The notes under the pieces: generated by a model
What the model was told of the DNA's origin: nothing
What the model saw: only the letters and a program-made list of their open reading frames with translations
Databases searched by the model: none
Made by a program: the position numbers and the translations under genes
Source: Burkholderiaceae bacterium
GTDB taxonomy: Bacteria > Pseudomonadota > Gammaproteobacteria > Burkholderiales > Burkholderiaceae
Direction: 5' to 3'
NCBI GenBank assembly: GCA_017998575.1
Contig: JAGOCV010000092.1
Span: 1-12,947 of the forward strand
Length of the DNA: 12,947 nucleotides
Part shown: positions 770 through 12,947 of the stretch, in pieces
Layout of the letters: each line of letters starts with the position of its first letter
Numbering within the stretch: the stretch's first letter is position 1

Positions 770-810
770 CCGGTCGAGGTTAGCAGAAGGCAGCGCGTGG
801 GACGCTACCG

Positions 811-830
811 GCAGGCCATGCCCGGCCTGC
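811..830 (-). terminator. GC-rich hairpin after the lipoprotein gene
   Basis: Perfect 7-bp arms (GCAGGCC and GGCCTGC) enclose a 6-nt loop just 3' of the lipoprotein stop codon and before the MFS start. There is no T-run after it, so it could be a weak terminator, a site of Rho-dependent termination or simply an RNA-stabilising stem. Confidence 0.35.
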
Positions 831-835
831 GTGCG

Positions 836-1735
836 TCAGAGCGCCGAGGCCTGCAGCGTGTCGGCCGCCTGCGGCTGGAACGCGGGCTGCTCCCCGAACA
901 GCGTGCGCAGCGCCTCGCGGTACTGCGTGTGGCCGATGGTGTTTGTGCTGAAGTGCGAGCCGCCTTCCACCAGCACGAAAAGCTTCGGGCCCACGGCGGC
1001 CTCGTAGAGCTTCTTGCCCAGCGAGGGCAGGATCAGGTTGTCGGCCGAGCCGTGCACCACCATCAGCGGCGAGCCGATGCGGTTGACCTTGGCCGTCGAT
1101 TCGAAGCGCTGCGTGATCAGGCCCGACAGCGGCAGCCAGCCCCACTTGAAGGTGCTGACCACTTCGGGGATGGAGGTGAACGTGCCTTCGACGATGGTGC
1201 CGGCCTCGTCCTTCACCTGCGCGGCCAGATCGATGCCGATGGCACCACCCAGCGAGTGGCCGAAGATGTAACGCGGCCGGCCGGGGTAGTTCTTCGCCAG
1301 CCAGTCCCACGCGGCCCGGGCGTCTTCGTAGGCGGTCTTCTCCGAGGGCAACAACGACGTGCTCTTGCCGAAGCCCCGGTAGTCGATGGCCAGCACCGAG
1401 AAGCCCAGCTCCTGCATGCGGCGGATGCGCGGCGCCGAGCCGGCCACGTTCCACTTGGCGCCGTGCAGGAACAGCAGCACGGGGCCCAGGGCGCCGGCCT
1501 CGGGCGGGCCATCCATCCACAGGCCGTGCAGCCGCGTGGATTCGCCGGATACGCGCGAATCGAAGTCGATCCAGACGTCCTTCATGTCCGAGGCCATCGC
1601 GGCGCTGTTGCCCCAGCTGGCGTCGCTGGGCTGGAAGATCCACTGACGCTGCTTCTCGTCCAGCGACGAGCATCCCGCCAGCAACAGCAGGGCAGCGAAC
1701 ATGGCGACGAGGGGGTGGCGCAGCAGGCGGCTCAT
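836..1735 (-). CDS. Alpha/beta-hydrolase lipoprotein
   Basis: This 299-aa predicted lipid-anchored serine hydrolase opens with a short basic segment, a hydrophobic stretch and the lipobox LLAGC, whose cysteine is residue 22. It therefore probably sits in the periplasm on the inner or outer membrane. The alpha/beta-hydrolase fold is shown by the oxyanion-loop HGAKWN, the nucleophile elbow FGHSLGG (Ser161), the acid in HGSADNL (Asp232) and the histidine in EGGSHF (His261), in the canonical order. It resembles the BEM46/YqiA-like group with a C-terminal HGSAD segment, but no substrate can be assigned. The ATG at 1733-1735 places the signal peptide correctly. An in-frame TTG nine codons upstream would lengthen it and is less likely. 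No good ribosome-binding site is visible. The long gap upstream is rich in inverted repeats, suggesting separate control. Confidence 0.88.
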   Translation of the reverse strand: MSRLLRHPLVAMFAALLLLAGCSSLDEKQRQWIFQPSDASWGNSAAMASDMKDVWIDFDSRVSGESTRLHGLWMDGPPEAGALGPVLLFLHGAKWNVAGSAPRIRRMQELGFSVLAIDYRGFGKSTSLLPSEKTAYEDARAAWDWLAKNYPGRPRYIFGHSLGGAIGIDLAAQVKDEAGTIVEGTFTSIPEVVSTFKWGWLPLSGLITQRFESTAKVNRIGSPLMVVHGSADNLILPSLGKKLYEAAVGPKLFVLVEGGSHFSTNTIGHTQYREALRTLFGEQPAFQPQAADTLQASAL

Positions 1736-1769
1736 GGGCAACAGAGTCCGGTGTTTTGACAAAGTTCAA

Positions 1770-1782
1770 GCACGTAACGTGC
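1770..1782. promoter_or_regulatory. Short palindrome upstream of the lipoprotein gene
   Basis: GCACGT, a central A, then ACGTGC form a perfect 6-bp-arm inverted repeat 35-47 bp upstream of the lipoprotein ATG. Its size and place suit a repressor operator, but no regulator is assigned. Confidence 0.3.
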
Positions 1783-1785
1783 CGT

Positions 1786-1803
1786 TGCCAGACCGGTCTG
1801 ACA
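1786..1803. promoter_or_regulatory. 18-bp imperfect palindrome (core CAGACCGGTCTG)
   Basis: A perfect 12-bp palindrome, CAGACCGGTCTG (1789-1800), is extended after one mismatched pair by TG on the left and CA on the right. The short-arm, spacerless form resembles sites bound by GntR- or TetR-type dimers. This is a resemblance of shape only. Confidence 0.35.
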
Positions 1804-1821
1804 GGGTTGACCCCGAGCGCC

Positions 1822-1852
1822 GCACTGTTACACGCCCAGTGTGTAACAGTGC
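1822..1852. promoter_or_regulatory. 12-bp-arm inverted repeat with 7-nt spacer
   Basis: GCACTGTTACAC and GTGTAACAGTGC are exact inverse copies separated by GCCCAGT, 87-117 bp upstream of the lipoprotein start. It could be a double-arm operator or a strong stem-loop. It does not follow a stop codon closely and has no T-run, so an operator seems likelier than a terminator. Confidence 0.45.
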
Positions 1853-1892
1853 CTTGGCGGCGGCGTGCGCCATCTGAAACATTCATGCGCGC

Positions 1893-1912
1893 CCGCGTGT
1901 ACGTAAACGCGG
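1893..1912. promoter_or_regulatory. 20-bp imperfect palindrome centred on TACGTA
   Basis: CCGCGT (1893-1898) and ACGCGG (1907-1912) flank TACGTA, with a single mismatched pair (G1899/A1906). It lies 36 bp beyond the stop of the DUF962 gene and more than 150 bp upstream of the lipoprotein gene, so its target is unclear. A smaller hairpin, CGTGG-GGCG-CCACG (1924-1937), sits between it and the DUF962 stop and might end that transcript. Confidence 0.3.
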
Positions 1913-1947
1913 CGACGCACCGTCGTGGGGCGCCACGCGTTGGCCGC

Positions 1948-2292
1948 TCAGAATGGGATGCGGCCCAGCCAGATATCGCGGTACATCGCCCAGTCGCCCA
2001 TGAAGCTGTAGAGCGGGCGCTTGAACGAGGCTGGCCGGTTTTTCTCGAAGCCGAAATGGCCGACCCACGCGAACCCGTAGCCACACAGCAACCCCGCCAG
2101 CAGGAAGCCGGGCCGGCCCGTGAACACCAGCGCGGCCAGGCAGGCCAGCGCCAGTGTCGAGCCCACGAAGTGCAGGCGTCGGCAGGTGCGGTTGGAATGC
2201 TCCGTCAGGTAGAACGGATAGAACTCCGCGAAGCTCGCGAAGCTGCGCGGGTCGGGCGCGGCGCCGGCGCGGGAAGGGGTCGTGGTGTCCAT
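1948..2292 (-). CDS. DUF962 / Mpo1-like membrane protein
   Basis: This small (114 aa) membrane protein belongs to the DUF962 family, whose yeast member Mpo1 is an iron-dependent dioxygenase acting in alpha-oxidation of 2-hydroxy fatty acids. The family pattern is clear: EHSNRTCRRLHFVG (His32 and His41) before the first hydrophobic stretch, two membrane segments at about 43-76, then GHFGFEKNRPASF (His79) and a C-terminal GDWAMYRDIWLGR. The histidines are the expected metal ligands. The bacterial function is not established and may differ from the yeast enzyme. The ATG at 2290-2292 has a good ribosome-binding site, AGGAGA, about 6 nt upstream. A candidate promoter lies 47-74 bp upstream. The thioredoxin-like gene is divergent, with 116 bp between the two starts. 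Confidence 0.88.
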   Translation of the reverse strand: MDTTTPSRAGAAPDPRSFASFAEFYPFYLTEHSNRTCRRLHFVGSTLALACLAALVFTGRPGFLLAGLLCGYGFAWVGHFGFEKNRPASFKRPLYSFMGDWAMYRDIWLGRIPF

Positions 2293-2338
2293 GGGATGTC
2301 TCCTGGAGCGGGAAGGCCTCTGGCGGGCCGGTCCGTCC

Positions 2339-2366
2339 ATTCTTGCGGACGAGTCACAATAGTCAA
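2339..2366 (-). promoter_or_regulatory. Candidate sigma70 promoter for the DUF962 gene
   Basis: Read on the minus strand, TTGACT (-35, 2361-2366) is followed after 16 bp by AAGAAT (-10, 2339-2344). That is 5/6 and 4/6 matches to consensus. The predicted transcript would start near 2332, about 40 nt before the ATG. This is the most AT-rich piece of the divergent gap; no equally good promoter was seen for the thioredoxin-like gene. Confidence 0.4.
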
Positions 2367-2408
2367 GCCAGTGCGCGACAGCGCGCCGCCCTTTCCGACC
2401 TGCCGCCG

Positions 2409-2759
2409 ATGTCCACGTTGCCGCCCACCTCCCGCCTGATCGCCTGCCTCTGCGCCGAATGGTGCGGTACCTGCCGCGACTGGCGCGCTCTGTTCGACGA
2501 GGTGACGGCGCGGCACCCGCGGGCGCGCGTGCGCTGGATCGACATCGAGGACGAAGCCGACCTGGTGGGCGACATCGACGTCGAAACCTTCCCCACGGTG
2601 CTGGTGGTGGATGGCGGCGAGCGCGTGCGCTTCTTTGGTCCGCTGCTGCCGCATGCGCAGACGCTGGCCCGCCTGCTCGATTCGCTCGAACCCGGCGGCG
2701 CGGAGCAGGCCGTGGATGGTGACGTGAAGGCGCTGGCGCGCCGGCTGGCGGCCGGCTGA
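2409..2759 (+). CDS. Thioredoxin-like protein
   Basis: This 116-aa cytoplasmic protein has a thioredoxin fold. The redox-active motif is WCGTC (residues 18-22, in CAEWCGTCRDW) and the cis-proline is in ETFPTVLV (Pro62). The central strand RVRWIDIEDEADLVGDIDV and the late glycine-containing strand RVRFFGPL fit thioredoxins. It has no signal peptide. CGTC differs from the CGPC of classical thioredoxins, so it may be a more specialised thiol-disulfide reductase. The start at 2409 fits the fold; an open frame runs further upstream but would overlap the divergent DUF962 gene and adds no recognisable sequence. No clear ribosome-binding site is seen. It is the only plus-strand gene here and converges on cofD, with 9 bp between the stops. 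Confidence 0.85.
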   Translation: MSTLPPTSRLIACLCAEWCGTCRDWRALFDEVTARHPRARVRWIDIEDEADLVGDIDVETFPTVLVVDGGERVRFFGPLLPHAQTLARLLDSLEPGGAEQAVDGDVKALARRLAAG

Positions 2760-2767
2760 TCCAGCCG
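2753..2767. terminator. Small hairpin between convergent thioredoxin-like and cofD genes
   Basis: CGGCTG and CAGCCG, separated by ATC, form a compact 6-bp stem overlapping the thioredoxin-like stop and ending just before the cofD stop. Its place suits a two-way terminator, but it is short and has no T-run. Confidence 0.3.
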
Positions 2768-2768
2768 T

Positions 2769-3710
2769 TCAGCCGCAGCGCGCGATCAATTCGAGCGAAG
2801 CGCGGGCCACGCGTTCGCGCGAGGCGGCATCGGTCATCAGCGTGTCGGTCACGCCCACCCGAATGCCCAGCGCCTCGATGGCGGGCGCCTGCGCGGCATC
2901 GCGTTCGTCCAGCACCAGGCCGTCGATGAGGCCGGCGTAGCGCCGCGCCACGCCCAGCGCAGATACCTCCAGCCCCAGCTCGTCCATCATCTTGGCGGCC
3001 GGGCCCTTCACGGCCTGGCCAGCGATGATCGGGCTCACGGCCACGCAGGGCGCGCGGCGCTGTTCCAGCCGCGTGCGCAGTCCGGCCACGGCAAGCATCG
3101 GGTCGATGCTCACGAACGGGTTGGAGGGGCAGATCACCCAGCCATCCACCCCGCCGGCATCGGCGCGCGCCACCAGCGGCGCGGCCAGGCGGGCGCTGTC
3201 GGCACCGTCGAACCGGATGCCGCGGCACACCGGCTCGCAGCGCCGCCGCACGAAGTAGTCCTGGAACGGCAGCTCGCCCTCGGGCGTGTCGACGTGCGTG
3301 CGCACGGGGTCGTCGCTCATGGGCACGATGTCGAACGCCAGGCCCAGCGCACGCGCCATGCGCGCCGTCACTTCGGACAGCGTGGCGCCCTGGCGGAGCC
3401 AGTCGGTGCGCAGCACGTGGGTGGCCAGGTCGCGGTCGCCCAGCATGAACCAGCTCTCGAAGCCCAGTTGCGGCAGGCTGTGATGGAAGTTCCAGCTCTC
3501 GTTCTCGCGGCCCCAGCCGCGCACGGTGTCGTTGAGCCCGGCCGCGGCGTAGAGCACGCTGTCGATGTCGGGGCACACGCGCAGGCCGAGGTAGTCGAAG
3601 TCGTCGCCCGTGTTGACCACGGCCATGAGTGAGCCGGGCACGCACACGGCGGCCAGGCCGCTGACGAGTTTGGCGCCGCCCACGCCGCCAGACAGTGCAA
3701 CGATGGTCAT
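2769..3710 (-). CDS. cofD: CofD, phospho-side-chain transferase to FO (F420 biosynthesis)
   Basis: CofD moves the GMP-activated phospho-side-chain (from CofC) onto the deazaflavin FO, giving F420-0 or its dehydro/3-phosphoglycerate analogue. The 313-aa length is normal for the family. Diagnostic motifs are GGVGGAKL at the N-terminus (8-15), NTGDDF (33-38), PDIDSVLY and the mid-protein WGRENESWNF. ICPSNPFVSIDP and VSPIIAGQAVKGPAAKMM form the GDP/FO-binding core. The protein is cytosolic. It is the last gene of the F420 operon, and its ATG overlaps the cofE stop by 4 bp (ATGA, 3707-3710), implying translational coupling. No extra domains are present. The family is very well recognised; only the exact side chain used is open. 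Confidence 0.97.
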   Translation of the reverse strand: MTIVALSGGVGGAKLVSGLAAVCVPGSLMAVVNTGDDFDYLGLRVCPDIDSVLYAAAGLNDTVRGWGRENESWNFHHSLPQLGFESWFMLGDRDLATHVLRTDWLRQGATLSEVTARMARALGLAFDIVPMSDDPVRTHVDTPEGELPFQDYFVRRRCEPVCRGIRFDGADSARLAAPLVARADAGGVDGWVICPSNPFVSIDPMLAVAGLRTRLEQRRAPCVAVSPIIAGQAVKGPAAKMMDELGLEVSALGVARRYAGLIDGLVLDERDAAQAPAIEALGIRVGVTDTLMTDAASRERVARASLELIARCG

Positions 3711-4465
3711 CGGAACAGGTCTTCAGTGAGCGGGCGCTGCAGGTCGCGGGCCGTCGCGCCCGCGCGCGCCTGCCACGCGAAACCCCGGATCACCACCGCC
3801 GGCGTGCCCTCGCTGCCCTGGCCCATGACGGCGGACGCGGCGGCGGCCAGCTCGTCGGCCGCGCCCACTTCGGAGGACACCAGCCGGTAGCCATACAGGT
3901 CGGTGTCGCCGCGCAGATCGTTCAGGCACACCAGGCCGCTGGCGCCGATGGCCTGACCCACGGTGCCGCGCCGCCAGGCCCGGCCCAGGCTGTCGTTGAT
4001 GATCACGGGCACGTCGAATCCGCAGCGCGTGGCCAGTGCCGCCGACAGCCGCGCGGCCGACGCATCGGGATCGCGCGGCCACGTCACCACCCATTCGCCG
4101 GGACCCAGCTGCGGCACGTTGGAGCGATCGACACCGGCATTGGCCAGCACCACGCCGCTCTTGTGGCGCGTGATGATCACGTGCGGCGTGCAACGCACCA
4201 CCTCGCTCGATTCGGACAGCACCACCTGCACCAGTCGCGGGTCGCGCTTCATCAGGGCGCCCAGTTCGCGCGCGCGGTCGGTGGGCTCCACCGCCTCGAC
4301 GTTGACTAAGCAGTTCTCGGTCTTGGAGACCACTTTCTGCGCGAACACCAGCAGGTCGCCAGAGGCGAGGCCGCCGGCCTGGGTGGCGGCGGCGTCGAAT
4401 GCGAGCTGGCAGAGGTCGTCGCCCGGCCCCAGGCGGGGCGGCAGGCGCAGGGCGATCAATTGCAT
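3707..4465 (-). CDS. cofE: CofE, F420-0:gamma-glutamyl ligase
   Basis: CofE adds L-glutamate residues to F420-0 through GTP-dependent amide bonds, making the polyglutamate tail. The 252-aa protein carries the family signatures QKVVSKTE (43-50), RHKSGVVLANAGVDRSN (100-116), NDSLGRAWRRGTVGQAIG (157-174) and GQGSEGTPAVVIRG (215-228). It ends after the ligase domain. The FMN nitroreductase-like domain fused in mycobacterial FbiB, which reduces dehydro-F420-0, is absent. The start at 4465 gives the expected N-terminus MQLIALRLP, but no strong ribosome-binding site precedes it. A 66-bp gap with a stable hairpin separates it from npdG, the loosest junction inside the operon. The 3' end overlaps cofD by 4 bp. 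Confidence 0.96.
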   Translation of the reverse strand: MQLIALRLPPRLGPGDDLCQLAFDAAATQAGGLASGDLLVFAQKVVSKTENCLVNVEAVEPTDRARELGALMKRDPRLVQVVLSESSEVVRCTPHVIITRHKSGVVLANAGVDRSNVPQLGPGEWVVTWPRDPDASAARLSAALATRCGFDVPVIINDSLGRAWRRGTVGQAIGASGLVCLNDLRGDTDLYGYRLVSSEVGAADELAAAASAVMGQGSEGTPAVVIRGFAWQARAGATARDLQRPLTEDLFR

Positions 4466-4509
4466 CGTCGGGTCGGCACGGTCATGCGCGGTGTGTTCGG
4501 AACCCCCGA

Positions 4510-4534
4510 TGATGCCTGCGCCGCGTGGGCATCA
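4510..4534 (-). other. Intercistronic hairpin between npdG and cofE
   Basis: TGATGCC and GGCATCA are exact 7-bp arms; inner C-G pairs and G-T wobbles can lengthen the stem to about 11 bp with a 3-nt loop. It covers the npdG stop codon and lies 45 bp before the cofE start. It has no T-run. It may protect or process the mRNA, or reduce read-through into cofE-cofD. Confidence 0.4.
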
Positions 4535-5212
4535 CGACGCCTGCGGCGGCAGGCCCGTGATGCGGATGCCCGAATCGGGCACCTTGTAGTTGCGGTTGAG
4601 CCAGATCAGCACCGAGGTGAGCGCCTCGGCCACCACGGAGTTGGCCAGCGCACCGGCTTCCACCGCGCTCATGCCGATGCCGCGGATGAGCGTCGCCACT
4701 GCGCGGCGCGCCTCGGCGTCGTCGGCGCAGACGAGCACGTCGCAGTCCACCGCGTGCGCGAGGTCCAGCAAGGCATGGGCCGACACGTTCTGGAACGCCG
4801 ACACCACGCGCACGTCGGTGCCCAGTTGCTCCTGCAGCAGCTTCACGCACGACTGGCCGCCGGGCAGTTGCGCCACGCTGACCTTGGGCGGCACCAGCGG
4901 CACCGTCACGTCGATGAGGATTTTGCCGGCCAGCTCGGCCTTCAGCGCCAGCGCCGTGGCCTGCTGTGCGCTGAACGGCACGGCCAGGATCACGATGTCG
5001 CCCGCCGCCGCGGCTTCGGCCAGGCTGGCGCCGCGCAGGTTGGATGTCCTGGTGAGCGTATTCAGCTCGGCGGCCTTGTCCGCCGCGCGCTGGGCGTCGC
5101 GCGAGCCGATGACCACCGGGTGGCCGCCCAGGGCCAGCCGCGCGGCGATGCCGGCGCCTTCGTGGCCGGTGCCACCGAGCACGGAAACGGTCGTGGATGT
5201 GGAAAGCGTCAT
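4532..5212 (-). CDS. npdG: F420:NADPH oxidoreductase (Fno/NpdG type)
   Basis: This enzyme passes hydride between NADPH and F420; in a bacterium without other F420 reductases it would make F420H2. The 226-aa protein starts with a Rossmann nucleotide site, VSVLGGTGHEGAGIAARLA (residues 9-27). It then has VVIGSR (33-38), whose Ser-Arg pair is expected to hold the NADPH 2'-phosphate. Later segments (ILAVPF, ILIDVTVPL, VVSAFQNVSAHAL, CDVLVCADD, GALANSVVAEALT) follow the archaeal Fno plan in order. It is cytosolic. Its ATG overlaps the fbiC stop by 4 bp (ATGA, 5209-5212), coupling it to F420 synthesis, and this context favours F420 over other acceptors. Some homologues are annotated only as NAD(P)-binding proteins, so cofactor use rests on family and context. 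Confidence 0.9.
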   Translation of the reverse strand: MTLSTSTTVSVLGGTGHEGAGIAARLALGGHPVVIGSRDAQRAADKAAELNTLTRTSNLRGASLAEAAAAGDIVILAVPFSAQQATALALKAELAGKILIDVTVPLVPPKVSVAQLPGGQSCVKLLQEQLGTDVRVVSAFQNVSAHALLDLAHAVDCDVLVCADDAEARRAVATLIRGIGMSAVEAGALANSVVAEALTSVLIWLNRNYKVPDSGIRITGLPPQAS

Positions 5213-7581
5213 GCCTGGAGGGTCTCCTGTTTGTGCGGGTATTGCATGGGAAGGTCGGCCGGCACGACAGGGCGCGCGCGGGCGACGGGTTGGTAGAGGG
5301 TGGTGCGCTGCTGCAGGCGGCGGCCGGTGGCCCCGGCGATGACCTGCAGCTGGCCCAGCGTCATCTCCTGGCCCCAGTCGGCGCCGGCAGCGCGCGAGAT
5401 GCTCTCGTTCATCAGGATGCCGCCGAAGTCGTTCACGCCCGCGGCCATCGTCTCCTGCATGCCGGCGGGGCCGAGCTTGACCCACGAGGTCTGGATGTTC
5501 GGAATCAGCGGATTGAGCACGAGGCGCGACACCGCGTACATCAGGATGTTCTCTCGCCAGGTGGGGCCGCCGCGCGAGACGTGGCGCTTGAACATCGGCG
5601 TGTTCATGGGCACGAAGGGCAGGGGCACGAATTCGGTGAAGCCGCCCGTGCGCTGCTGCACGTCGCGCACGGCCAGGATGTGGCGCGCCCAGTGGATGGT
5701 GCGGTCCACGTGGCCGAACATGATGGTGGCCGTGGTGGCGATGCCCTCGCGGTGCGCGTCCTCGATCACCGACAGCCATTCGGATGTGTTCACCTTGTCG
5801 GGGCAGATGATGGCGCGCACCTCGTCGTCGAGTATTTCGGCGGCCGTACCGGGCAGCGAGCCCAGGCCGTGCGATTTCAGTTCGCGCAGCAACTCGCGGT
5901 GGCTGATGCCCAGGGTCTGCGCGCCGTGCCAGATCTCCAGTGGCGAGAAGGCATGCACGTGCATGTCGGGCACGGCGGCCTTCACGGCCTTGAGCAGGCC
6001 GATGTAGGTGTTGCCGTCGAAGCTGGGGTGGATGCCGCCCTGCATGCAGACCTCGGTGGCGCCGCGCTGCCAGGCCTCCATCGCCATGCCGGCCACTTCG
6101 GCGTAGGCCAGGTTGTAGGGCCCGTCCACCTTGCGCTCGCCGCCCGTGCGCTTGGAGAACGCGCAGAACGAGCACTTGTAGCCGCACACGTTGGTGTAGT
6201 TGATGTTGCGGTTGACCACGTAGCGGGCCACGTCGCCGCTCACGCGCTGGCGCACTTCGTCGGCGGAGCGCACGATGTGGCGGTAGTCGGCGCCACGGGC
6301 TTCGAAGAGCCGGGCCACTTCGGCTTCATGAAGGCGCTGGCCGGCCACGGCACGTGCCACCAGATCGCGCACGTCGGCCGAGGGGCGTTCGGCCGCATGC
6401 ACCGGGGCCGAACCCACGGTCGGCTGCGCGCAGGCCACATCGCCCGGGCGCCAGTCGCCCTCGCGCGCCAGGCCGGACACGTCGCTGCGCAGCATCACGC
6501 GGCCCAGCAGCGCGGGCGCGATCCAGGTGGCGGCATCGCGCACGTAGGCGGGGTAGACGGGCAGGCGCTGGGCCAGGGTGAAGTCGGCTTCTTCCAGCTC
6601 GCGCGCCAGCACCGGCAGTTGCGGCCAGGCGGCCTCGGGGTTGACGTAGTCGATGGTGACGGGCGAGATGCCGCCCAGGTCGCTCACGCCCGCATCGAGC
6701 AAGTCCAGCACTTCGCTGCCGGCGGTGAGGTTGGGCGGCGCCTGCACGGCGATGCTGGCGGGCAGCATGAGGCGCGCGGCGGCGATGGTCCACAGGTGCT
6801 CGGCGTGCGAGGGCTCGGCCCAGTCGCGCATGGGCGTGTTGTCCTTGGCGCGGAAGTTCTGCACGATCACTTCCTGGATGTGGCCGAACTCGTCGTGCAG
6901 CTCGCGGATGGCGGCCAGCGCCTGCAGCCGCTCTTCGCGCGTCTCGCCGATGCCGATCAGGATGCCGGTGGTGGTGGGGATGCGCAGGCGGCCCGCGTCG
7001 CGCAGCATGGCCAGCCGCACGGCGGGCTGCTTGTCGGGCGAGCGGTAGTGGGCGCCGCCCTTGCTCATCAGACGGTCCGAGGTGCTCTCCAGCATCAGGC
7101 CCATCGACACGCTGTGCTCGCGCAGCGCGGCCAGCTCGTTGGCGGTCAGGATGCCGGCGTTGACGTGCGGCAGCAGCGTGCTGTTGCGATTGACCTCGCG
7201 GCAGGCGGCCAGCAGGTAATCGACGGTGGATGCATGGCCGTGCGCCTGCAGCCACTGGCGCGCGACTTCAAAGCGCAGCTCGGGCTTGTCGCCCAGAGTG
7301 AACAGCAGCTCGGTGCAGCCCTGCTTCTGGCCGTCGCGGGCGAGCTTCACCACCGCATCCATGTCCATGTAGGGCGGCGTGCTGGCGCGCGGCGGGCGCG
7401 AGAAGGTGCAGTAGCCGCAGAAGTCGCGGCACAGCATGGTGAGCGGCGCGAACACCTTGCGCGAGTACGTGATGACCGGGCCGTGCAGCGCGCGGGCGCG
7501 GGCGCCGGCGGCGGCCATGAGTTCGGTGGCAGGTGTGGCCAGCACCTGGCTGGCGTTCCATCCGGGATGGGAGAAGGACAT
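5209..7581 (-). CDS. fbiC: FbiC, fused CofG-CofH FO synthase (radical SAM)
   Basis: FbiC makes the deazaflavin FO from 5-amino-6-ribitylaminouracil (a riboflavin intermediate) and tyrosine, using two radical-SAM halves. Each half has its own 4Fe-4S CxxxCxxC site. The N-terminal CofG half has CRDFCGYC (Cys51, 55, 58), followed by ELLFTLGDKPE, GHIQEVIVQNFRAK and the C-terminal GISPVTIDYVNPE. The C-terminal CofH half has CGYKCSFC (Cys466, 470, 473), followed by EVCMQGGIHPSF, HAFSPLEI and GSLPGTAAEIL. A linker of roughly 70 residues joins the halves. At 790 aa it is somewhat shorter than the mycobacterial protein but has the same CofG-CofH order; methanogens encode the halves separately. The ATG at 7579-7581 has a good ribosome-binding site (AGGAG). 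It lies 39 bp after cofC and overlaps npdG by 4 bp. Confidence 0.97.
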   Translation of the reverse strand: MSFSHPGWNASQVLATPATELMAAAGARARALHGPVITYSRKVFAPLTMLCRDFCGYCTFSRPPRASTPPYMDMDAVVKLARDGQKQGCTELLFTLGDKPELRFEVARQWLQAHGHASTVDYLLAACREVNRNSTLLPHVNAGILTANELAALREHSVSMGLMLESTSDRLMSKGGAHYRSPDKQPAVRLAMLRDAGRLRIPTTTGILIGIGETREERLQALAAIRELHDEFGHIQEVIVQNFRAKDNTPMRDWAEPSHAEHLWTIAAARLMLPASIAVQAPPNLTAGSEVLDLLDAGVSDLGGISPVTIDYVNPEAAWPQLPVLARELEEADFTLAQRLPVYPAYVRDAATWIAPALLGRVMLRSDVSGLAREGDWRPGDVACAQPTVGSAPVHAAERPSADVRDLVARAVAGQRLHEAEVARLFEARGADYRHIVRSADEVRQRVSGDVARYVVNRNINYTNVCGYKCSFCAFSKRTGGERKVDGPYNLAYAEVAGMAMEAWQRGATEVCMQGGIHPSFDGNTYIGLLKAVKAAVPDMHVHAFSPLEIWHGAQTLGISHRELLRELKSHGLGSLPGTAAEILDDEVRAIICPDKVNTSEWLSVIEDAHREGIATTATIMFGHVDRTIHWARHILAVRDVQQRTGGFTEFVPLPFVPMNTPMFKRHVSRGGPTWRENILMYAVSRLVLNPLIPNIQTSWVKLGPAGMQETMAAGVNDFGGILMNESISRAAGADWGQEMTLGQLQVIAGATGRRLQQRTTLYQPVARARPVVPADLPMQYPHKQETLQA

Positions 7582-7620
7582 GGGAGGGCTCCTGGCGGGG
7601 CGTTCGCTGTGCGCCGCGGG

Positions 7621-8277
7621 TCAGGCCTGCAGCGCGGGTTCGGGCCTGCACGCGGCCGGGGCGTCGGCGTTGGCGGCGCGGGCGGGGCGCCAGCGCAGGT
7701 AGTCGGCCGGCTCGTCGATGTCGAAGGCGAAGACAGAATCGTCCTGCACGACCGGCCGCAAGCCTTCGCGCCACGCCATCAGCCGGTGGCGCACCAGGCT
7801 GCCGGGGCCGAAGGCGTAGTCGTGCAGCGCGACCGGCGACTGGAACAGCAGGTTGGTGCCCTGGCCATGGTGATCGGGCACGAGCACGCACACCGGCCCG
7901 TCGGGGGCCGATTCCACCAGGCGCCGCAGGTCGTCGCCGCTGCCGCCCGGCAGATCCACCGGCATCACGAGGACGGCGTCGGCGCCCGACTCGCGCGCAT
8001 GCATCGCGCCCCACTGCACGGCCGCGTTCAGCCCGTAGGGCGCAGGCTCGGGCAGGGCCTGGCAGCCGTGCTCGCGGGCGATGCGCAGCACCTCGAGCGA
8101 ACGGCTCACCACCAGCGTGCGGCCGGCACCGGGATAGGCGCTGGCGCGCTCGAGCGTGCGCAGCAGCAACTGGCGGTTGAGGCCCACGCGCTCGGCCGGC
8201 GAGAGCATGCCGGCCAGGCGGGTCTTGCCCTCCTCGAAAGGCTTGACGGGAATGACCGCGTGGAGCTGGCGGGGCAT
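7621..8277 (-). CDS. cofC: CofC/FbiD, phospho-side-chain guanylyltransferase
   Basis: CofC uses GTP to activate the F420 side-chain precursor, giving a GDP-linked intermediate for CofD. Depending on the organism the precursor is 2-phospho-L-lactate, phosphoenolpyruvate or 3-phospho-D-glycerate. The 218-aa protein has a nucleotidyltransferase fold. It shows IPVKPFEEGKTRLA (9-22, phosphate-binding), MPVDLP with the metal-binding Asp108, DHHGQGTNLL (135-144), YAFGPGSLVRH (154-164) and FDIDEPADY (185-193). A poorly conserved tail of about 20 residues follows. The ATG at 8275-8277 gives the usual N-terminus. An in-frame TTG 27 codons upstream would fall inside the predicted -35 element and is rejected. 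It is the first gene of the F420 operon, under the candidate promoter at 8330-8358. Its substrate cannot be settled by eye. Confidence 0.94.
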   Translation of the reverse strand: MPRQLHAVIPVKPFEEGKTRLAGMLSPAERVGLNRQLLLRTLERASAYPGAGRTLVVSRSLEVLRIAREHGCQALPEPAPYGLNAAVQWGAMHARESGADAVLVMPVDLPGGSGDDLRRLVESAPDGPVCVLVPDHHGQGTNLLFQSPVALHDYAFGPGSLVRHRLMAWREGLRPVVQDDSVFAFDIDEPADYLRWRPARAANADAPAACRPEPALQA

Positions 8278-8329
8278 GGCAGTGGCAGGGCGGCGGGGCA
8301 AGGAGAGAGCAACGGGCTCGTGTGGAACC

Positions 8330-8358
8330 AGTATCGGCAAGCCGCCGGGGCGTCTCAA
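8330..8358 (-). promoter_or_regulatory. Candidate sigma70 promoter of the F420 operon
   Basis: On the minus strand, TTGAGA (-35, 8353-8358; 5/6 consensus) is followed after exactly 17 bp by GATACT (-10, 8330-8335; 4/6). Transcription would start near 8323, about 46 nt before the cofC ATG. It is the best promoter-like match I found in the gap between the regulator gene and cofC, and a LysR-type dyad sits directly upstream. Confidence 0.55.
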
Positions 8359-8378
8359 CAGCCAGCCCTATTTGGGCG

Positions 8379-8393
8379 ATAAGCGCTGCTTAT
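8379..8393. promoter_or_regulatory. LysR-type operator dyad (ATAAGC-GCT-GCTTAT)
   Basis: Perfect 6-bp arms around GCT contain the T-N11-A core of LysR-type recognition sites. The AT-rich arm ends stand out in very GC-rich surroundings. The centre (8386) is about 63 bp upstream of the transcript start predicted from the promoter at 8330-8358, where such regulators usually place their primary site (near -65). The adjacent LysR-type gene at 8434-9378 is the likely binder. A small GC stem (8410-8423) between that gene's stop and the dyad might separate the two transcripts. Confidence 0.6.
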
Positions 8394-8433
8394 GCGTGCC
8401 CGGCCCCGCGGCGGCCCACCGCCCGTGCGTCAG

Positions 8434-9378
8434 TCAGGCCACGCGCAGGCGCGGCGAGGCGTCGCCCTGGCCGCGCAGGGTGCGCAGCTTTTCCTGGTCG
8501 TCGGCCAGCTGCATGCGCATGCAGCGCAGCAGGGTCTTGCTCGCTTCGGACATCAACACGCCCGGGCGGGACACCATCACGCACGAGAACAGCACGTTGA
8601 GCGAGAACGGCCGGATCACCAGGCCACGCTCCACGAAATCGATGGCGACGATGGGGTTGACCAGCCCGATGCCCACGCCGGCCAGCGCCAGCTCGCAGAT
8701 GGTGCTGGCATAGGGGGTTTCGACCACGGGGGCGAGAAGGTGATCGGTCGCCTGCAGCATCTTCTCGAGCCGCAGCCGCGAGGCGTCCTCGGGGTTGAGG
8801 CCCACGTGCGGATGTGCCACCAGGTCGGCCGGCTCGATCACGCTCTTGCGCGCGAGCGCGTGGCCGGGCGCCATCACGATCACGCCGTTCATGTGGGCGA
8901 AGGCGTGGTGCTCCAGGCCCGAGGCCGGCGTCTCGTCGGCCATCAGGCCGAAGTCGTACTGGCCGGCCAGCACGTTCTGGTAGACGTCGCGCGAGCTCAT
9001 CACCTGCAGCGAAACCTTCATGTTGTCCAGCTGCGGCTGCATGCGTGCGATGGCGCGCGGCACGAAGCTGGTGCCGTAGGCCGGATAGGCGGCGATGCGC
9101 AGGCGGCCCATCACGCCCGAGCGCAGGCTGCGGATGCGGTGCTGGATGAGTTCGAGGCCCACGAAGCACTGGTTCACCTCGGCCAGCAGCGCCTCGGCTT
9201 CCTGCGTGGGCACCAGCCGTCCTCGCACGCGCTCGAACAGGCGGAACTCGGCGCTGGTCTCGAGCTTGCGGATGATCTGGCTGACCGCCGGTTGCGAGAT
9301 GCCGAGCAGGGTGGCCGCCTTGCTGGTGCTGCCCGCCCCCATCACGGCCCGGAAGACTTCGATTTCGCGCAGCAGCAT
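8434..9378 (-). CDS. LysR-type transcriptional regulator, likely controlling F420 operon
   Basis: This DNA-binding regulator of 314 aa has a normal length for LysR-type proteins. The N-terminal winged helix-turn-helix spans about residues 3-62, with the recognition region GSTSKAATLLGISQPAVSQIIRKLE (16-40). A linker helix follows. From about residue 91 comes the periplasmic-binding-protein-like effector domain (GRLRIAAYPAYGTSFVPRAI; later ALAGVGIGLVNP). The ligand is not predictable. The ATG at 9376-9378 gives a typical start, MLLREIEVFRAV, but no clear ribosome-binding site precedes it. Unusually for the family the gene is not divergent from its probable target: it lies upstream of cofC in the same direction, and the operator-like dyad falls in the 156-bp gap between them. 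No strong promoter of its own was seen. Confidence 0.93.
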   Translation of the reverse strand: MLLREIEVFRAVMGAGSTSKAATLLGISQPAVSQIIRKLETSAEFRLFERVRGRLVPTQEAEALLAEVNQCFVGLELIQHRIRSLRSGVMGRLRIAAYPAYGTSFVPRAIARMQPQLDNMKVSLQVMSSRDVYQNVLAGQYDFGLMADETPASGLEHHAFAHMNGVIVMAPGHALARKSVIEPADLVAHPHVGLNPEDASRLRLEKMLQATDHLLAPVVETPYASTICELALAGVGIGLVNPIVAIDFVERGLVIRPFSLNVLFSCVMVSRPGVLMSEASKTLLRCMRMQLADDQEKLRTLRGQGDASPRLRVA

Positions 9379-9616
9379 GGTGATATCGCCTGTGAGTTCG
9401 CCGCCCCGGCAGAGCGCCTCGGGCTTCGATGCTCAATCTAGCAACTTGCATGCCGCAGGCGCGAGCGGGCGAGCCCGGTTGCCGTCGCGCGCGAAGCGCT
9501 GTAGGCACGCCTGTCCATGTGTACTTTCGACTCCGTGACCTCACGCTTTTGCGCCGTGGCGGCCCACCCCGCGCACCTGCAGCGCGCATCCGCCGGTCAC
9601 CGCAGCGGTGCCAGGC
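9379..9616. other. 238-bp intergenic region between the GFA-like gene and the LysR-type gene
   Basis: This is the largest gap in the window. It should hold the regulator's promoter, but I found no convincing -35/-10 pair. TAGATT near 9436-9441 (minus strand) is the best -10-like word. No open frame here looks like a gene. Confidence 0.5.
9598..9610 (-). terminator. Short hairpin after the GFA-like gene
   Basis: CACCG and CGGTG with a CAG loop form a 5-bp stem 6 bp beyond the stop codon of the GFA-like gene. Position favours a terminator role, but the stem is short and lacks a T-run. Confidence 0.25.
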
Positions 9617-10024
9617 CTAGGGTTGGCCGTCGAAGGAGGGCGTGCCGTGAGGCAGTTGCACCCACGCCTGCCGACGCCGCGTCCAGATCTCGCGCTGCGG
9701 GCCGCCGAGTTCGTGGCGCTGCGCCAGCGTGCCGGTGCGCAGCGAGTACGACGGCGGGTCCTGCACGGCACAGGCGTAGAGCTGCGTGGCGCAGATCTCG
9801 CAGAACGCCGTGAGCCGCTGCCTTCCGCTGGCCGCTGTCTTGACGTAGGTGCGCGGCGTGCCTCTGACGAGCCGGAAGCCCGCCGCAGGTGCCTGGATGT
9901 TGGCCCGGAAGGCCGAGCCGGACTGCACCTGGCAATCGATGCAATGGCAGATGGTCACCGTGCCGGGCTCGACATCGGCTTCGTATGCGATCGCGCCGCA
10001 GTGGCACGCGCCTTCGACTTTCAT
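9617..10024 (-). CDS. GFA/CENP-V family zinc-binding protein
   Basis: This 135-aa protein is of the family named after glutathione-dependent formaldehyde-activating enzyme (Gfa) and centromere protein V. The full cysteine set is present: GACHCGAI (Cys7, 9), ICHCIDCQ (Cys26, 28, 31) and FCEICATQLY (Cys75, 78). These ligands hold two zinc ions in characterised members. The usual glycine after the last cysteine (CGT) is alanine here. The start at 10024 has a good ribosome-binding site, AAGGAG; longer in-frame versions lack one. Most members have no proven reaction, and a glutathione-formaldehyde role should not be assumed. It lies alone between the LLM gene and the LysR-type gene, all on the minus strand. 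The 165-bp leader and its hairpins suggest it is transcribed separately from the LLM gene. Confidence 0.88.
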   Translation of the reverse strand: MKVEGACHCGAIAYEADVEPGTVTICHCIDCQVQSGSAFRANIQAPAAGFRLVRGTPRTYVKTAASGRQRLTAFCEICATQLYACAVQDPPSYSLRTGTLAQRHELGGPQREIWTRRRQAWVQLPHGTPSFDGQP

Positions 10025-10125
10025 GGAGGTCTCCTTGGGCTTCGCGACCGCGCGTTGGCGGCGGCCGGATGGCGATGCTCCCACGATATCGCCGATCGCG
10101 CCGGCCGACCCTTGCCGGGTGCATG

Positions 10126-10150
10126 CGCATGGAGACCGCCATGCGTCTCC
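10126..10150. repeat. Two overlapping, mutually exclusive inverted repeats upstream of the GFA-like gene
   Basis: CGCATGG/CCATGCG (10126-10132 and 10139-10145, 6-nt loop) and GGAGAC/GTCTCC (10131-10136 and 10145-10150, 8-nt loop) share bases, so only one stem can form at a time. They lie 102-126 bp before the GFA-like ATG and could be operator or leader structure; nothing proves either. Confidence 0.3.
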
Positions 10151-10173
10151 TGCACAGCGAATGGGGGAAGCAC

Positions 10174-10195
10174 CGCTGACGCCGCAGCGTCAGCG
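10174..10195 (-). terminator. Strong GC hairpin over the LLM gene stop codon
   Basis: CGCTGACGC and GCGTCAGCG are perfect 9-bp arms around CGCA. The stem includes the LLM stop codon at 10190-10192. There is no T-run downstream on the minus strand, so this is a terminator-like or 3'-end-protecting structure rather than a textbook intrinsic terminator. Confidence 0.45.
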
Positions 10196-11197
10196 CACCA
10201 CCGCCAGCGCTTCGCCGATCCCCGCGCGGTCGTCGATGCCGCCGATGGTGACTTCGTCCAGCCCCAGCGCCATGTATTCGGCGTAGCGCGCGCGCACCTG
10301 CTGCGGCGTGCCGGCGGCGGCATGCGCGCGGATCACGTCGTCGGTGACCAGGCGTTCGAGCGTGGGCCAGTCTTCGTCGCGGAAGGCGTTCCACACAGCC
10401 GTCTGGTCCAGCCGCGTGCCCGACAGTTCCACGTTCTTCGCATGGTGCGGGCCGCGCAGGATGAAGCCCATGGTGCGGCGGATGCTGCCCAGGGCTTCGG
10501 CTTGCGTGCCGGCGATGCGTGTGTAGACGATGGCCGTGCGGCTGCAGCGGCCCGGCGCGGTGCGGCGCGCCTCGCCCTGGTCCACCTGTTGCAGGCACCA
10601 GCGGATGAAGGGCGTGCCGGTGGCGGCCGAGATCAGCACGCCATCGGCCTCGGCGCCGGCCAGCTCCAGCATCTGCGGGCCCGACGCGGCGAGCACGATG
10701 GGCACGCGCGTCGTGGGATTGGGCAGGCGTCGGCCCTGCACGTTGAAGACTTCGCCCGCGTGCGCCATGGTCTCGCCGGCCAGCAGCGCGCGGCACACGC
10801 GGATGGCTTCGCGCAGCGTGACCAGCGGGCGCGGCGCCTCGATGCCGGCGGCGGCCAGGTCGCCCGGTGCGCCCACGCCCAGGCACAGCACGACGCGGCC
10901 CGGAAACAGCTCGTCCAGCGCGGCAGCGGCCATGGCGATGTAGACCGGGTGCACCGAGAACGGGCTCATCGCCATCAGCGCGACCTTGATGCGCGACGTG
11001 GCGGCCAGTGCGGCATGCGCCGCCGTCACCGGGTCGCGCAGGAAGAGGTGGCAGGCCACCCAGATCGTCGAGGCGCCGCCGGCTTCGGCCACGCGCGCCT
11101 GTTCGACGAATTCGGCCAGCGTGGCGCGGCCATCGGAGGCCACGCCGATCTGGCTGGCGCGGATGGACGCGTGGGCGTCAGGCGACGTCGAAACCAT
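10190..11197 (-). CDS. LLM-family (luciferase-like) oxidoreductase, candidate F420-dependent
   Basis: This 335-aa TIM-barrel protein of the bacterial luciferase/LLM family, whose members use F420H2 or FMNH2, resembles 5,10-methylenetetrahydromethanopterin reductase. Family marks are GVASDGRATLAEFVEQARVAEAGG near the start, SPFSVHP (78-84), LDELFPGRVVLCLGVG (94-109) and VPIVLAASGPQMLELAGAEADGVL (165-188). It is cytosolic. The start codon at 11195-11197 lies inside the end of the PLP-enzyme gene (20-bp overlap), so the two are surely co-expressed. F420 use is inferred from family and from the F420 operon 1.9 kb away, not from a diagnostic residue; an FMN-dependent monooxygenase is the main alternative. 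The substrate is unknown and is probably linked to what the neighbouring PLP enzyme or transporter handles. Confidence 0.88.
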   Translation of the reverse strand: MVSTSPDAHASIRASQIGVASDGRATLAEFVEQARVAEAGGASTIWVACHLFLRDPVTAAHAALAATSRIKVALMAMSPFSVHPVYIAMAAAALDELFPGRVVLCLGVGAPGDLAAAGIEAPRPLVTLREAIRVCRALLAGETMAHAGEVFNVQGRRLPNPTTRVPIVLAASGPQMLELAGAEADGVLISAATGTPFIRWCLQQVDQGEARRTAPGRCSRTAIVYTRIAGTQAEALGSIRRTMGFILRGPHHAKNVELSGTRLDQTAVWNAFRDEDWPTLERLVTDDVIRAHAAAGTPQQVRARYAEYMALGLDEVTIGGIDDRAGIGEALAVVR

Positions 11198-12428
11198 AGT
11201 GTTCCTTGAGTGTGGCGAGCGCCGCGTCCAGCCGGGGGGCGGTGCGCGGCACCGGCGGCAGGTGGCGCTCGGTCACGGGGTTGTCCTTGAGGCCGGAGGC
11301 GGTGAGCAGCGACACCACGCGATCGTGCGGCGCGATGGTGCCGTCGGCGCGTAGCCGCTCGATGGCCGGCAACGTGGCTACCGAGGCCGGCTCGGCGTAG
11401 ATGCCTTCGGCCGGGCCCAGGCGTGCATGCCAGCGCAGGATGTCCTCGTCGGGCACGTGAACCGACACGCCGCGCGAGGCGCGCAGCGCCATCAGCCCCT
11501 GCAGCGTGCCCTGGGCGGCGGCGATGGACGCCGCCGACGACGGTGCCGCCAGCGGGCGCACGGGCGGCACGTCGCCGCCTTCGGCCAGGGCCTCGGTGAT
11601 CGAGCCCGATACTTCGGCGGCCAGCAGGCGCGGCACGCGCTGCGTCCAGCCCAGCGTGCGCAGGTCGTCGAAGCCCTTCCAGATGCCATAGAGCGAGTCG
11701 CCGTAGCAGGCCGGGACGGCGCACCACTCGGGCACGTCCCAGTCCATGGCTTCGGCGATTTCGTAGGCGATGGTCTTGTAGCCCTCGATGCCCAGCGGGC
11801 TGCTGCCGATCACGGGGCCGAAGTAAGCGGTGGTGGGAAACCAGCCGTGGCGCGCCACCGCATCGACCAGCACCGTCCAGCGGTCGGCGCTGGTGGGCAC
11901 CTTGAGCAGCAGCGCGCCGTACGCCTGCATCTGCGTGACCATGGCGCCGCCCGCGTTCTCGGTGGTCAGCACCACGCAGGGCAGTCCCGCGCGCGCGGCA
12001 TAGGCGGCGGTGGCTGCGCCCGCGTTGCCCGACGAGCTGCAGGCGATCACGCGCGCGCCCATGCGGCGCGCCATCGTCACGGCCGCGCTGGCCAGCCGGT
12101 CCTTGAACGACCAGGTGGGATTGCGGCTCTCGTCCTTGAACCACAGCGGGCCCAGGCCCAGGCGAGGCGCCTGCAGCAGCGGCGTGAGCCCTTCGCCCAG
12201 GCTCACGGCCGCATCGGCGGGCGCGTGCAGCAGGTCGGCGTACCGCCACATCGAACGCGGCCCGCGCTGCAGGTCGTCGGGCCTGAGCGCGGGCCAGGGC
12301 GCGTCGTAGCCCACCGTGAGGTTGGCCGCGACGCCCTGGGCGGCACAGGCGTCGCAGCCGCGCACGTGGTCGGCCAGCGCGAACCGCTTGCCGCAGCGGA
12401 TGCAGTACAGGTGGGTCGATTCGCGCAT
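11178..12428 (-). CDS. Threonine-synthase-like PLP-dependent enzyme with N-terminal zinc ribbon
   Basis: This 416-aa enzyme is a fold-type II PLP enzyme of the threonine synthase group. The N-terminus carries two CxxC pairs (Cys9/12 and Cys25/28) forming a zinc-ribbon-like knuckle, as in many archaeal-type threonine synthases. The catalytic lysine is in NPTWSFKDR (Lys109), the PLP phosphate loop is CSSSGNAGAATAAY (130-143), and TASGLKDN near the C-terminus matches the family's TGxGLKD. It could make threonine from O-phosphohomoserine. However, beta-proteobacteria normally use the longer ThrC, so a specialised beta- or gamma-replacement/elimination activity is plausible; cysteate synthase and diaminopropionate ammonia-lyase are relatives. 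It lies 17 bp after the binding-protein gene and overlaps the LLM gene. No ribosome-binding site is evident. Confidence 0.88.
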   Translation of the reverse strand: MRESTHLYCIRCGKRFALADHVRGCDACAAQGVAANLTVGYDAPWPALRPDDLQRGPRSMWRYADLLHAPADAAVSLGEGLTPLLQAPRLGLGPLWFKDESRNPTWSFKDRLASAAVTMARRMGARVIACSSSGNAGAATAAYAARAGLPCVVLTTENAGGAMVTQMQAYGALLLKVPTSADRWTVLVDAVARHGWFPTTAYFGPVIGSSPLGIEGYKTIAYEIAEAMDWDVPEWCAVPACYGDSLYGIWKGFDDLRTLGWTQRVPRLLAAEVSGSITEALAEGGDVPPVRPLAAPSSAASIAAAQGTLQGLMALRASRGVSVHVPDEDILRWHARLGPAEGIYAEPASVATLPAIERLRADGTIAPHDRVVSLLTASGLKDNPVTERHLPPVPRTAPRLDAALATLKEHYGFDVA

Positions 12429-12445
12429 GGGCCGGGCGATCGCGC

Positions 12446-12947
12446 TTACTTCAGCTCGTAGGTGTCGAGCACCGATACCTTGCGGTCCTTGACCTGGTTG
12501 ATGACCACCAGGCGGCCGGCCTGGTTGTTGGCGTCGAAGGACAGCTTGCCGCCATGCAGGCCGGTGATGCTGGCCTTGGCCATGGCGTCGCGCACCTTGA
12601 CCGGGTCATCGCTCTGCGCATCGCGGATCGCAGCGGCGATCATGCGCACGCTGTCGTAGCCCGCCCAGGCCTGCAGGTTGGCGGGAATCTTGTGGCGCGC
12701 GAGGATGGTGGCGGCGAACTTCTTGTTGGCCGGGTTGTCGATCTCGGGCGCATACGTCCAGGCCGAGATCGAACCGTTCAGGCCGCCGGCCTGGATCAGC
12801 TCCACCGTCTTGCCGGAAAGGTCGGCGCGGCCGGTGAAGGGAATGTTCACGCCCATCTGCATGGCGGTGCGGAAGAAGTTCAGCGAATCCGCGCCGAGCA
12901 TGAACATGGCGATCGCGTCGGGCCGGCGCTGCGTCACGCGCGTGAGC
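12446..12947 (-). CDS. ABC transporter periplasmic binding protein, branched-chain amino acid (Liv) type, C-terminal part
   Basis: This is the C-terminal 166 codons of a type-I periplasmic binding protein (Peripla_BP_6 group), continuing past the right edge. Recognisable segments are DAIAMFMLGADSLNFFRTAMQMG (the hinge and ligand-lobe strand/helix), the late helix AWAGYDSVRMIAAAIRDA, DDPVKVRDAMAKASITGLHGGKLSFDANNQ, and a final strand ending DTYELK, all typical for LivJ-like proteins. It would capture an amino acid or small carboxylate for an ABC importer whose membrane and ATPase genes are not in the window. The stop codon is TAA at 12446-12448. The PLP-enzyme gene follows 17 bp later, so uptake and conversion of an amino-acid-like compound are probably linked. 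Confidence 0.9.
   Translation of the reverse strand, partial: LTRVTQRRPDAIAMFMLGADSLNFFRTAMQMGVNIPFTGRADLSGKTVELIQAGGLNGSISAWTYAPEIDNPANKKFAATILARHKIPANLQAWAGYDSVRMIAAAIRDAQSDDPVKVRDAMAKASITGLHGGKLSFDANNQAGRLVVINQVKDRKVSVLDTYELK

Follow-up and report, generated by a model that had tools for sequence, protein, structure and literature searches.

A probable coenzyme F420 biosynthesis operon with a rotated gene order in a Burkholderiaceae bacterium

We analyzed a stretch of 12,947 nucleotides from a Burkholderiaceae bacterium (GCA_017998575.1, contig JAGOCV010000092.1), hereafter the window, which carries five genes for the biosynthesis and reduction of coenzyme F420 in a single run on the minus strand, from 8277 to 2769, exactly as a preliminary description made from the sequence letters had placed them. 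The run begins with cofC (8277-7621, 218 aa), encoding a predicted 2-phospho-L-lactate/phosphoenolpyruvate guanylyltransferase (TIGR03552, 129.6 bits against a cut-off of 105), and continues with fbiC (5209..7581, 790 aa), encoding a fused CofG-CofH synthase of 7,8-didemethyl-8-hydroxy-5-deazariboflavin (FO) with two radical-SAM domains (NF006687, 1019.8 bits against 1018). These are followed by npdG, or fno (4532..5212, 226 aa), for an NADPH-dependent F420 reductase (TIGR01915, 177 bits against 149.8), cofE (3707..4465, 252 aa), for an F420-0:gamma-glutamyl ligase (TIGR01916, 240.2 bits against 180.65), and cofD (2769..3710, 313 aa), for a phospho-lactate/phosphoenolpyruvate transferase (TIGR01819, 296.5 bits against 257.45). 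The genes are tightly packed, with 39 bp between cofC and fbiC, 66 bp between npdG and cofE, and overlaps of 4 bp between fbiC and npdG and between cofE and cofD.

All five proteins exceeded curated NCBIfam (equivalog) cut-offs and their frames are open. The fbiC product was also far above the NCBIfam cut-offs of TIGR03550 and TIGR03551, and both of its radical-SAM motifs, CRDFCGYC and CGYKCSFC, can be read from the sequence, in agreement with the earlier statement that five families with intact catalytic segments are present. The closest solved structure to NpdG was an F420:NADP oxidoreductase (5n2i, E 4e-36), CofE had structural relatives in 2g9i, 7uld, and 2phn (E 1.1e-38), and the cofE product had no FbiB C-terminal reductase domain. 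The best relative of the window, locus L001, is a contig of a Burkholderiales metagenome-assembled genome (MAG), which fits the probable betaproteobacterial source proposed before; nucleotide identity was 93.3% over window positions 1-9527 and 91.6% over 9608-12645, near the end of L001. Between the two, the ratio of nonsynonymous to synonymous substitution rates (dN/dS) was 0.17 for cofC, 0.13 for fbiC, 0.12 for npdG, 0.14 for cofE, and 0.26 for cofD, values which argue that the operon reflects neither chance nor decay. We therefore consider it very probable that this Burkholderiales bacterium encodes a working, NADPH-fed five-gene F420 operon. Following established family functions, FbiC would make FO, CofC would activate 2-phospho-L-lactate (2-PL) or phosphoenolpyruvate (PEP) using GTP, CofD would couple the activated unit to FO, CofE would append gamma-glutamates, and NpdG would transfer hydride from NADPH onto F420; F420H2 would then supply luciferase-like reductases such as that encoded at 10190-11197. 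Base composition gave no sign of recent acquisition, as GC content at third codon positions ranged from 0.89 to 0.93 within the operon and from 0.87 to 0.93 across six measured neighboring genes.

We read gene order in 167 long cofD loci (157 plus 10 plasmid loci), using F for fbiC, N for npdG, E for cofE, D for cofD, and C for cofC. The window has the order CFNED, a rotation of the commoner FNEDC in which cofC stands first instead of last. The 81 loci in which all five genes share a strand comprised 33 NEDCF, 31 FNEDC, 5 CFNED, and 4 DCFNE, such that one circular order accounted for 73 of them, with four of the five possible cuts represented; the remaining orders were FDCEN (5), NFEDC (1), DCFEN (1), and NFDCE (1), and six further loci had inverted parts. 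A tree was made from the 87 loci with all five genes, while the other 80, which were cut by contig ends, scattered, or gene-deficient, were left uncounted. These 87 include near-copies (the window and L001; five Zhongshania loci), and all came from proteobacterial records or searches except L274, which came from a Chloroflexota search. Four loci of a single clade (L186, L202, L203, and L210) had fbiC and cofC divergent from npdG-cofE-cofD. A second architecture, F (or GH)-D-C-E-N, was found in L225, L251, L261, L287, L289, and L288, with cofG and cofH separate in annotated records, and Variovorax PBL-E5 had N-GH-D-C-E, a rotation within that second architecture.

On the 87-locus tree, explaining the observed orders took 15 changes, and five states at the root fitted equally well. 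CFNED occurred in three places: the window and L001 within the FNEDC clade, L158 elsewhere in the same clade, and L205 and L242 in the NEDCF clade. We built gene trees and ran approximately unbiased (AU) tests with 40 or 41 chosen rows out of the 87, using a quick tree method. The four genes other than cofC rejected single-origin clades of the window, L001, and L158 (p 2.7e-6), of L158, L205, and L242 (p 6.6e-7), and of all five CFNED rows (p 5e-40), and the DCFNE rows L237, L004, and L021 were likewise rejected as one clade (p 4e-63). CofC alone also rejected the five-row CFNED clade (p 0.0025) and the clade of the window, L001, L205, and L242 (p 0.0006), and did not reject that of the window, L001, and L158 (p 0.13). 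Given these rejections, the cofC-first order arose at least three times. In a main clade of 79 rows with NEDCF at its base, we counted seven rotations (L286; L237; the 33-row FNEDC clade; the window and L001; L158; L205 and L242; and L004, L021, and L032), one other same-strand move (L148), and three changes with inversion (L266, L282, and four -F-CNED loci). Taking FNEDC as the basal order gave eight rotations and one other move. A rotation would result from 4 of 20 random block moves, or from 2 of 16 single-gene moves. With random block moves as the null model, finding 7 rotations among the 8 same-strand changes of the main clade had a probability of 8.4e-5. Across the entire tree, rotations made up 7-8 of the 12 same-strand changes (P 0.0006-0.004 depending on the root). 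Within the main clade, the events first seen after the idea of rotation had formed were four rotations and the L148 move (4 of 5, P 0.007). All of these tests take the events as independent and the tree as correct; the tree was made by quick methods with several long branches flagged, and the main clade was our own choice.

The F420 operon is patchy in Proteobacteria, yet not rare, and the preliminary description, in calling proteobacterial producers sparse, overstated the case. A search for cofD (TIGR01819) at E 1e-20 recovered it from 32 of 399 sampled genomes in the order of L001. At E 1e-40, the proportions were 9 of 399 for the family of L001, 58 of 385 for the class that includes the alphaproteobacterium Aquamicrobium, 14 of 321 for the class of Zhongshania, a gammaproteobacterium, and 71 of 121 for the phylum to which an Anaerolineaceae MAG belongs. 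A review likewise describes the distribution of F420 in Proteobacteria as variable and its genes as horizontally transferred (PMC8498797). In a plasmid collection, relatives of CofD were present on 39 records (17 conjugative, 1 mobilizable, and 21 non-mobilizable), though at least one of these, from Nonomuraea and 11.85 Mb long, is clearly a chromosome. Some proteobacterial cofD homologs stood without any other F420 gene in the fetched stretch (L036, L157, L172-L174, L257, and L259), and three further lone-cofD candidates (L034, L175, and L177) lay on stretches cut by contig ends. A full F420 operon was also found in L035 (CAMAVY010000041.1), titled as a Klebsiella pneumoniae MAG, a label or binning that is probably wrong.

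Gene trees and genome comparisons point to gain of the operon by transfer. The window and L001 were placed beside L029 and L180 in the trees of FbiC (support 100), NpdG (98), and CofE (99), as well as in a tree of NpdG, CofE, CofD, and CofC combined without FbiC (100). GyrB identity was 87.5% between G001, the MAG of our relative, and G1078, 85.9% between G027 and G1078, and 85.5% between G001 and G027, with the values for G1078 covering its 503-aa match, while FbiC identity was 84.9% between G027 and G1078 and 60.7-61.8% between G001 and either of them. When 11 genomes were compared in all 55 pairings, the identities of GyrB and of FbiC were hardly correlated (Spearman 0.21). Because these distances disagree, transfer is a simpler account than plain descent, and we consider that the operon was probably acquired and kept as a module. 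Gain as one module had been proposed before, and it is supported by the shared sisters in the FbiC, NpdG, and CofE trees, by the GyrB and FbiC mismatch, and by plasmid-borne cofD, with CofD itself a weak witness and CofD and CofC together favoring another neighbor, L148.

How cofC came to stand first in the window can be explained in different ways, and several of our results weigh against rotation. If cofC, maybe together with cofD, had been re-acquired from another lineage and placed in front, with loss of the old terminal cofC, one would understand why CofC of the window shares 32-33% identity with that of L029 and L180 while FbiC shares 61-62%, and why the CofC tree placed the window beside L148 (support 47), a pairing that reached 96 in a tree of CofD and CofC. 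The CofD tree kept the window with L029 and L180 at a support of merely 24. However, the CofC data did not reject a clade of the window, L001, L029, and L180 (AU p 0.28), CofC of L029 was remote (25-33%) from every compared row but L180, and in the CofC tree the window still fell into a group made up of fbiC-first rows and L148 (89), of which L148 itself has cofC last. Since FbiC, NpdG, and CofE agree and CofD and CofC do not firmly do so, the latter two may have been exchanged among members of one clade; a re-acquired cofC nevertheless seems rather unlikely to us, and rotation the likely source of the cofC-first order. Such a rotation could proceed by tandem duplication of the operon and complementary loss of parts, which would turn FNEDC into CFNED with no gene lost, or by integration of a circular copy that was then trimmed by loss. 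The excess of rotations and the presence of the operon on conjugative plasmids speak for duplication or a circle, which we propose as a mechanism while holding it less likely than not. The duplication step went unseen, with no second operon copy, circle, or relic: a search of flanks of up to 3.5 kb in the 87 loci (E <0.5) found no relic at cofC-first or cofD-first loci, its matches being 12 npdG-like (at most 16.2 bits) and one cofE-like (10.2 bits), and one match of 10.2 bits lying at L286, which we counted as a rotation. A check of cofD alone in the searched genome lists found no true duplicate, as the paired cofD rows of G422 and G307 were halves of one gene (separated by in-frame stops in G422 and lying on two contigs in G307). 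This lack of a duplicated operon suits a scenario of ordinary gene and block moves, in which selection held certain neighbors together and neither tandem copy nor circle was involved. Several rotations need merely one end gene to shift, the L148 swap was non-rotational, as were most of the changes that fell outside the main clade, and over the whole tree only 4-5 of the 9 later-found events were rotations (P 0.02-0.09). On the other hand, such moves would be expected to give the 4 of 20 or 2 of 16 mentioned above, whereas the counts were 7 of 8 for the main clade and 7-8 of 12 overall, and no adjacency appears obligatory, because each of the five neighbor pairs was broken somewhere (four by some rotation, and npdG-cofE in L148 and the FDCEN loci). 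We regard ordinary moves as a serious contender, if not quite an even chance.

Two further alternatives concern the function of the operon. In Mycetohabitans, the presence of Ser or Thr at position 162 of CofC tracks the use of 3-phosphoglycerate (3-PG), with contributions from M91 and C95 (PMC8764529). The window could thus encode a 3-PG-derived F420 (3PG-F420) operon as in the betaproteobacterium Mycetohabitans rhizoxinica, which belongs to the same bacterial class and whose 3-PG enzyme (7p97) was ranked first by phmmer among solved relatives of CofC. In the window, however, CofC has G at the equivalent of S162, L at M91, and V at C95, and across 134 CofC proteins from the collected loci the diagnostic site held G in 131, A in 2, E in 1, and Ser or Thr in none. 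The site was mapped through G163 of FbiD, equated with S162 in PMC8764529, in an alignment to 6bwg that was ungapped there, while direct alignment of the window CofC with 7p97 placed a one-residue gap at the S162 position. Glycine at this site predicts a tail derived from 2-PL or PEP, which we consider highly probable, and makes 3PG-F420 very improbable. CofD scored 228.4 bits against the 2-PL transferase 3c3d and 180.6 bits against the PEP transferase 6uvx, which hints at 2-PL use and provides a lead. Equally improbable, if not more so, is that the genes are a decaying or FO-only remnant, supplying for example a photolyase chromophore: two alphaproteobacteria were reported to contain merely trace F420 (PMC8498797), but all five frames of the window are open and each gene, including the tail genes cofC, cofD, and cofE, had a dN/dS of 0.12-0.26. 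Overall, a functional module with a 2-PL or PEP tail and a rotated cofC is, with good probability, the best explanation of the locus.

The PEP route requires a dehydro-F420 reductase, and the searches for this enzyme count against a PEP route of the known type in the window. No nitroreductase was found among the scanned proteins of the window and no FbiE-like frame by phmmer, and the best FbiE-like match in the possibly incomplete MAG of the relative (G001) reached 25.9 bits. The FbiB C-terminal model, with a cut-off of 249.55, is no guide by itself, because FbiE of Thermomicrobium roseum scores 163 bits with it. Among 36 genomes searched for the reductase, only G009 exceeded 100 bits (136), the best of the other 35 reaching 68. 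As no known dehydro-F420 reductase was found, a PEP route here would need an unrecognized one, and operons of the window type that lack the known enzyme would either use 2-PL or rely on a reductase of unrecognized type. The locus exposes this gap: its CofC is of the 2-PL/PEP type, yet no dehydro-F420 reductase could be detected, a situation shared by 35 of the 36 genomes. An FbiE-like nitroreductase was found inside an enlarged cofE-cofD gap in L147, L156, L245, and L250 (phmmer with T. roseum FbiE, 151-173 bits), loci which form a proteobacterial six-gene variant that presumably follows the PEP route. Weaker FbiE-like matches were detected in L202 and L210, FbiE-like genes were also present in Chloroflexota loci, and a match of 123 bits lay on the Variovorax PBL-E5 plasmid. 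In sum, the preliminary description is supported on gene families, source, gain as a module, and physiological use, and it missed the gene order, the predictable tail type, and the failure to find a reductase gene beside the operon in addition to overstating rarity.

Upstream of the operon, also on the minus strand, lie a LysR-family regulator directly before cofC (8434..9378; PF00126 and PF03466; dN/dS 0.019 to L001), which is a candidate operon regulator, a GFA-family protein (9617..10024, scanned as the frame 9617-10036; PF04828), and a Mer-like luciferase-like oxidoreductase (LLM; 10190..11197; PF00296). The end of a gene for a pyridoxal phosphate enzyme of the threonine-synthase group (11178..12428; PF00291; NF006050, 241.8 bits, below the cut-off of 303) overlaps the LLM gene, and the C-terminal part of a LivK-type substrate-binding protein (12446..12946; PF13458), both of these again on the minus strand, is cut by the window end. 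A thioredoxin-like gene on the plus strand faces cofD, and a search of the window for tRNAs found none. Gene order in L001 was the same save for an extra 335-aa reading frame (L001 3110-4117) between the GFA and LysR genes, which has no counterpart in the window and no Pfam match at E 1e-5.

The best solved relatives of the window LLM were F420-dependent Mer enzymes (E 1.3e-30), while it scored 154.8 bits against NF002619 (cut-off 276) and remained below the cut-offs of all 25 NCBIfam models listed; it is probably an F420H2-dependent partner enzyme of the operon. LLM genes were found at 15 of 20 F420 loci and in 2 of 20 control regions located 34-65 kb away on the same contigs or genomes (Fisher P 3.4e-5), and among 147 loci they were present in 80, with the nearest one within 500 bp and on the same strand in 32. 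The role of F420 in Gram-negative producers has been called unknown (PMC8764529). A real physiological use, as suggested previously, is backed by dN/dS and by this enrichment, and the locus may be summarized as a clean, conserved, apparently NADPH-fed operon adjoining a gene for a luciferase-like reductase. In G001, the stretch upstream of the window-type cluster (L291) held, all on the same strand, a second LLM gene and hydantoinase/oxoprolinase A and B genes (5212-10088), as well as Liv-type transporter genes. Hydantoinase/oxoprolinase genes were present at 8 of 148 loci (7 of 147 if the upstream stretch L291 is set aside); 40 genomes contained 190 such genes, roughly one per Mb, a background from which about 2 loci would be expected. 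In the controlled comparison, they occurred at 1 of 20 F420 loci and in 0 of 20 control regions. Catabolism of a nitrogenous compound is a plausible role, but the hydrolase enrichment is weak and provides only a lead. Tripartite-transporter receptors (TctC) were not enriched (8 of 20 F420 loci, 5 of 20 control regions). Genes for both PntA and PntB, the NAD(P) transhydrogenase, were located near the F420 operons of L180 (9579-12432), L219, and L287, where they would supply NADPH to NpdG, and PntA alone was found near those of L029 and L284.

The broader proposal that proteobacterial F420 operons evolve by rotation, keeping a circular order while the cut point shifts repeatedly and independently, is one that we put forward as a doubtful but consequential possibility. 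If it were true, the operon would regularly exist for a time as a tandem duplicate or a circle, as might happen when a plasmid copy recombines with a resident one and the product is trimmed, and if it were general, operons could change their order and their promoter-proximal gene without ever losing function. The pattern makes it testable whether operons rearrange via duplicated or circular intermediates or via single-gene moves. Among the matches listed in a search that covered the subscription literature thinly, we found no published account of such a pattern, which is weak evidence of novelty, and in the available text of the F420 review (PMC8498797) the terms 'permut', 'synten', and 'gene order' do not occur.

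Compared with known systems, the window shares with the archaeal 2-PL route of methanogens a stand-alone CofE and the likeness of CofD to 3c3d, and differs from it in the fused CofG-CofH and in having NpdG within the operon. It has homologs of CofC/FbiD and CofD/FbiA in common with the PEP route of Thermomicrobium roseum and mycobacteria, whose FbiE or FbiB C-terminal reductase was not found here. Mycetohabitans (Paraburkholderia) rhizoxinica is likewise a betaproteobacterium with CofC, CofD, and CofE (PMC8764529; PMC8498797), but the CofC residues of the window differ and are of the 2-PL/PEP type. The closest likeness is to plasmid 2 of Aromatoleum aromaticum EbN1 and to pCME4A9I of Croceicoccus marinus, which carry the same five genes on the same strand, with a fused FbiC, a stand-alone CofE, and NpdG inside the operon. 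The gene next door belongs to the pyridoxamine-phosphate-oxidase family in EbN1, and LLM genes take this place in Croceicoccus. In both of these operons cofC is last, whereas in the window it is first and the operon occupies a different site, preceded by a LysR gene and an LLM cluster. Five-gene sets are already known in relatives, and what is unusual here is the rotated order within a wider pattern.

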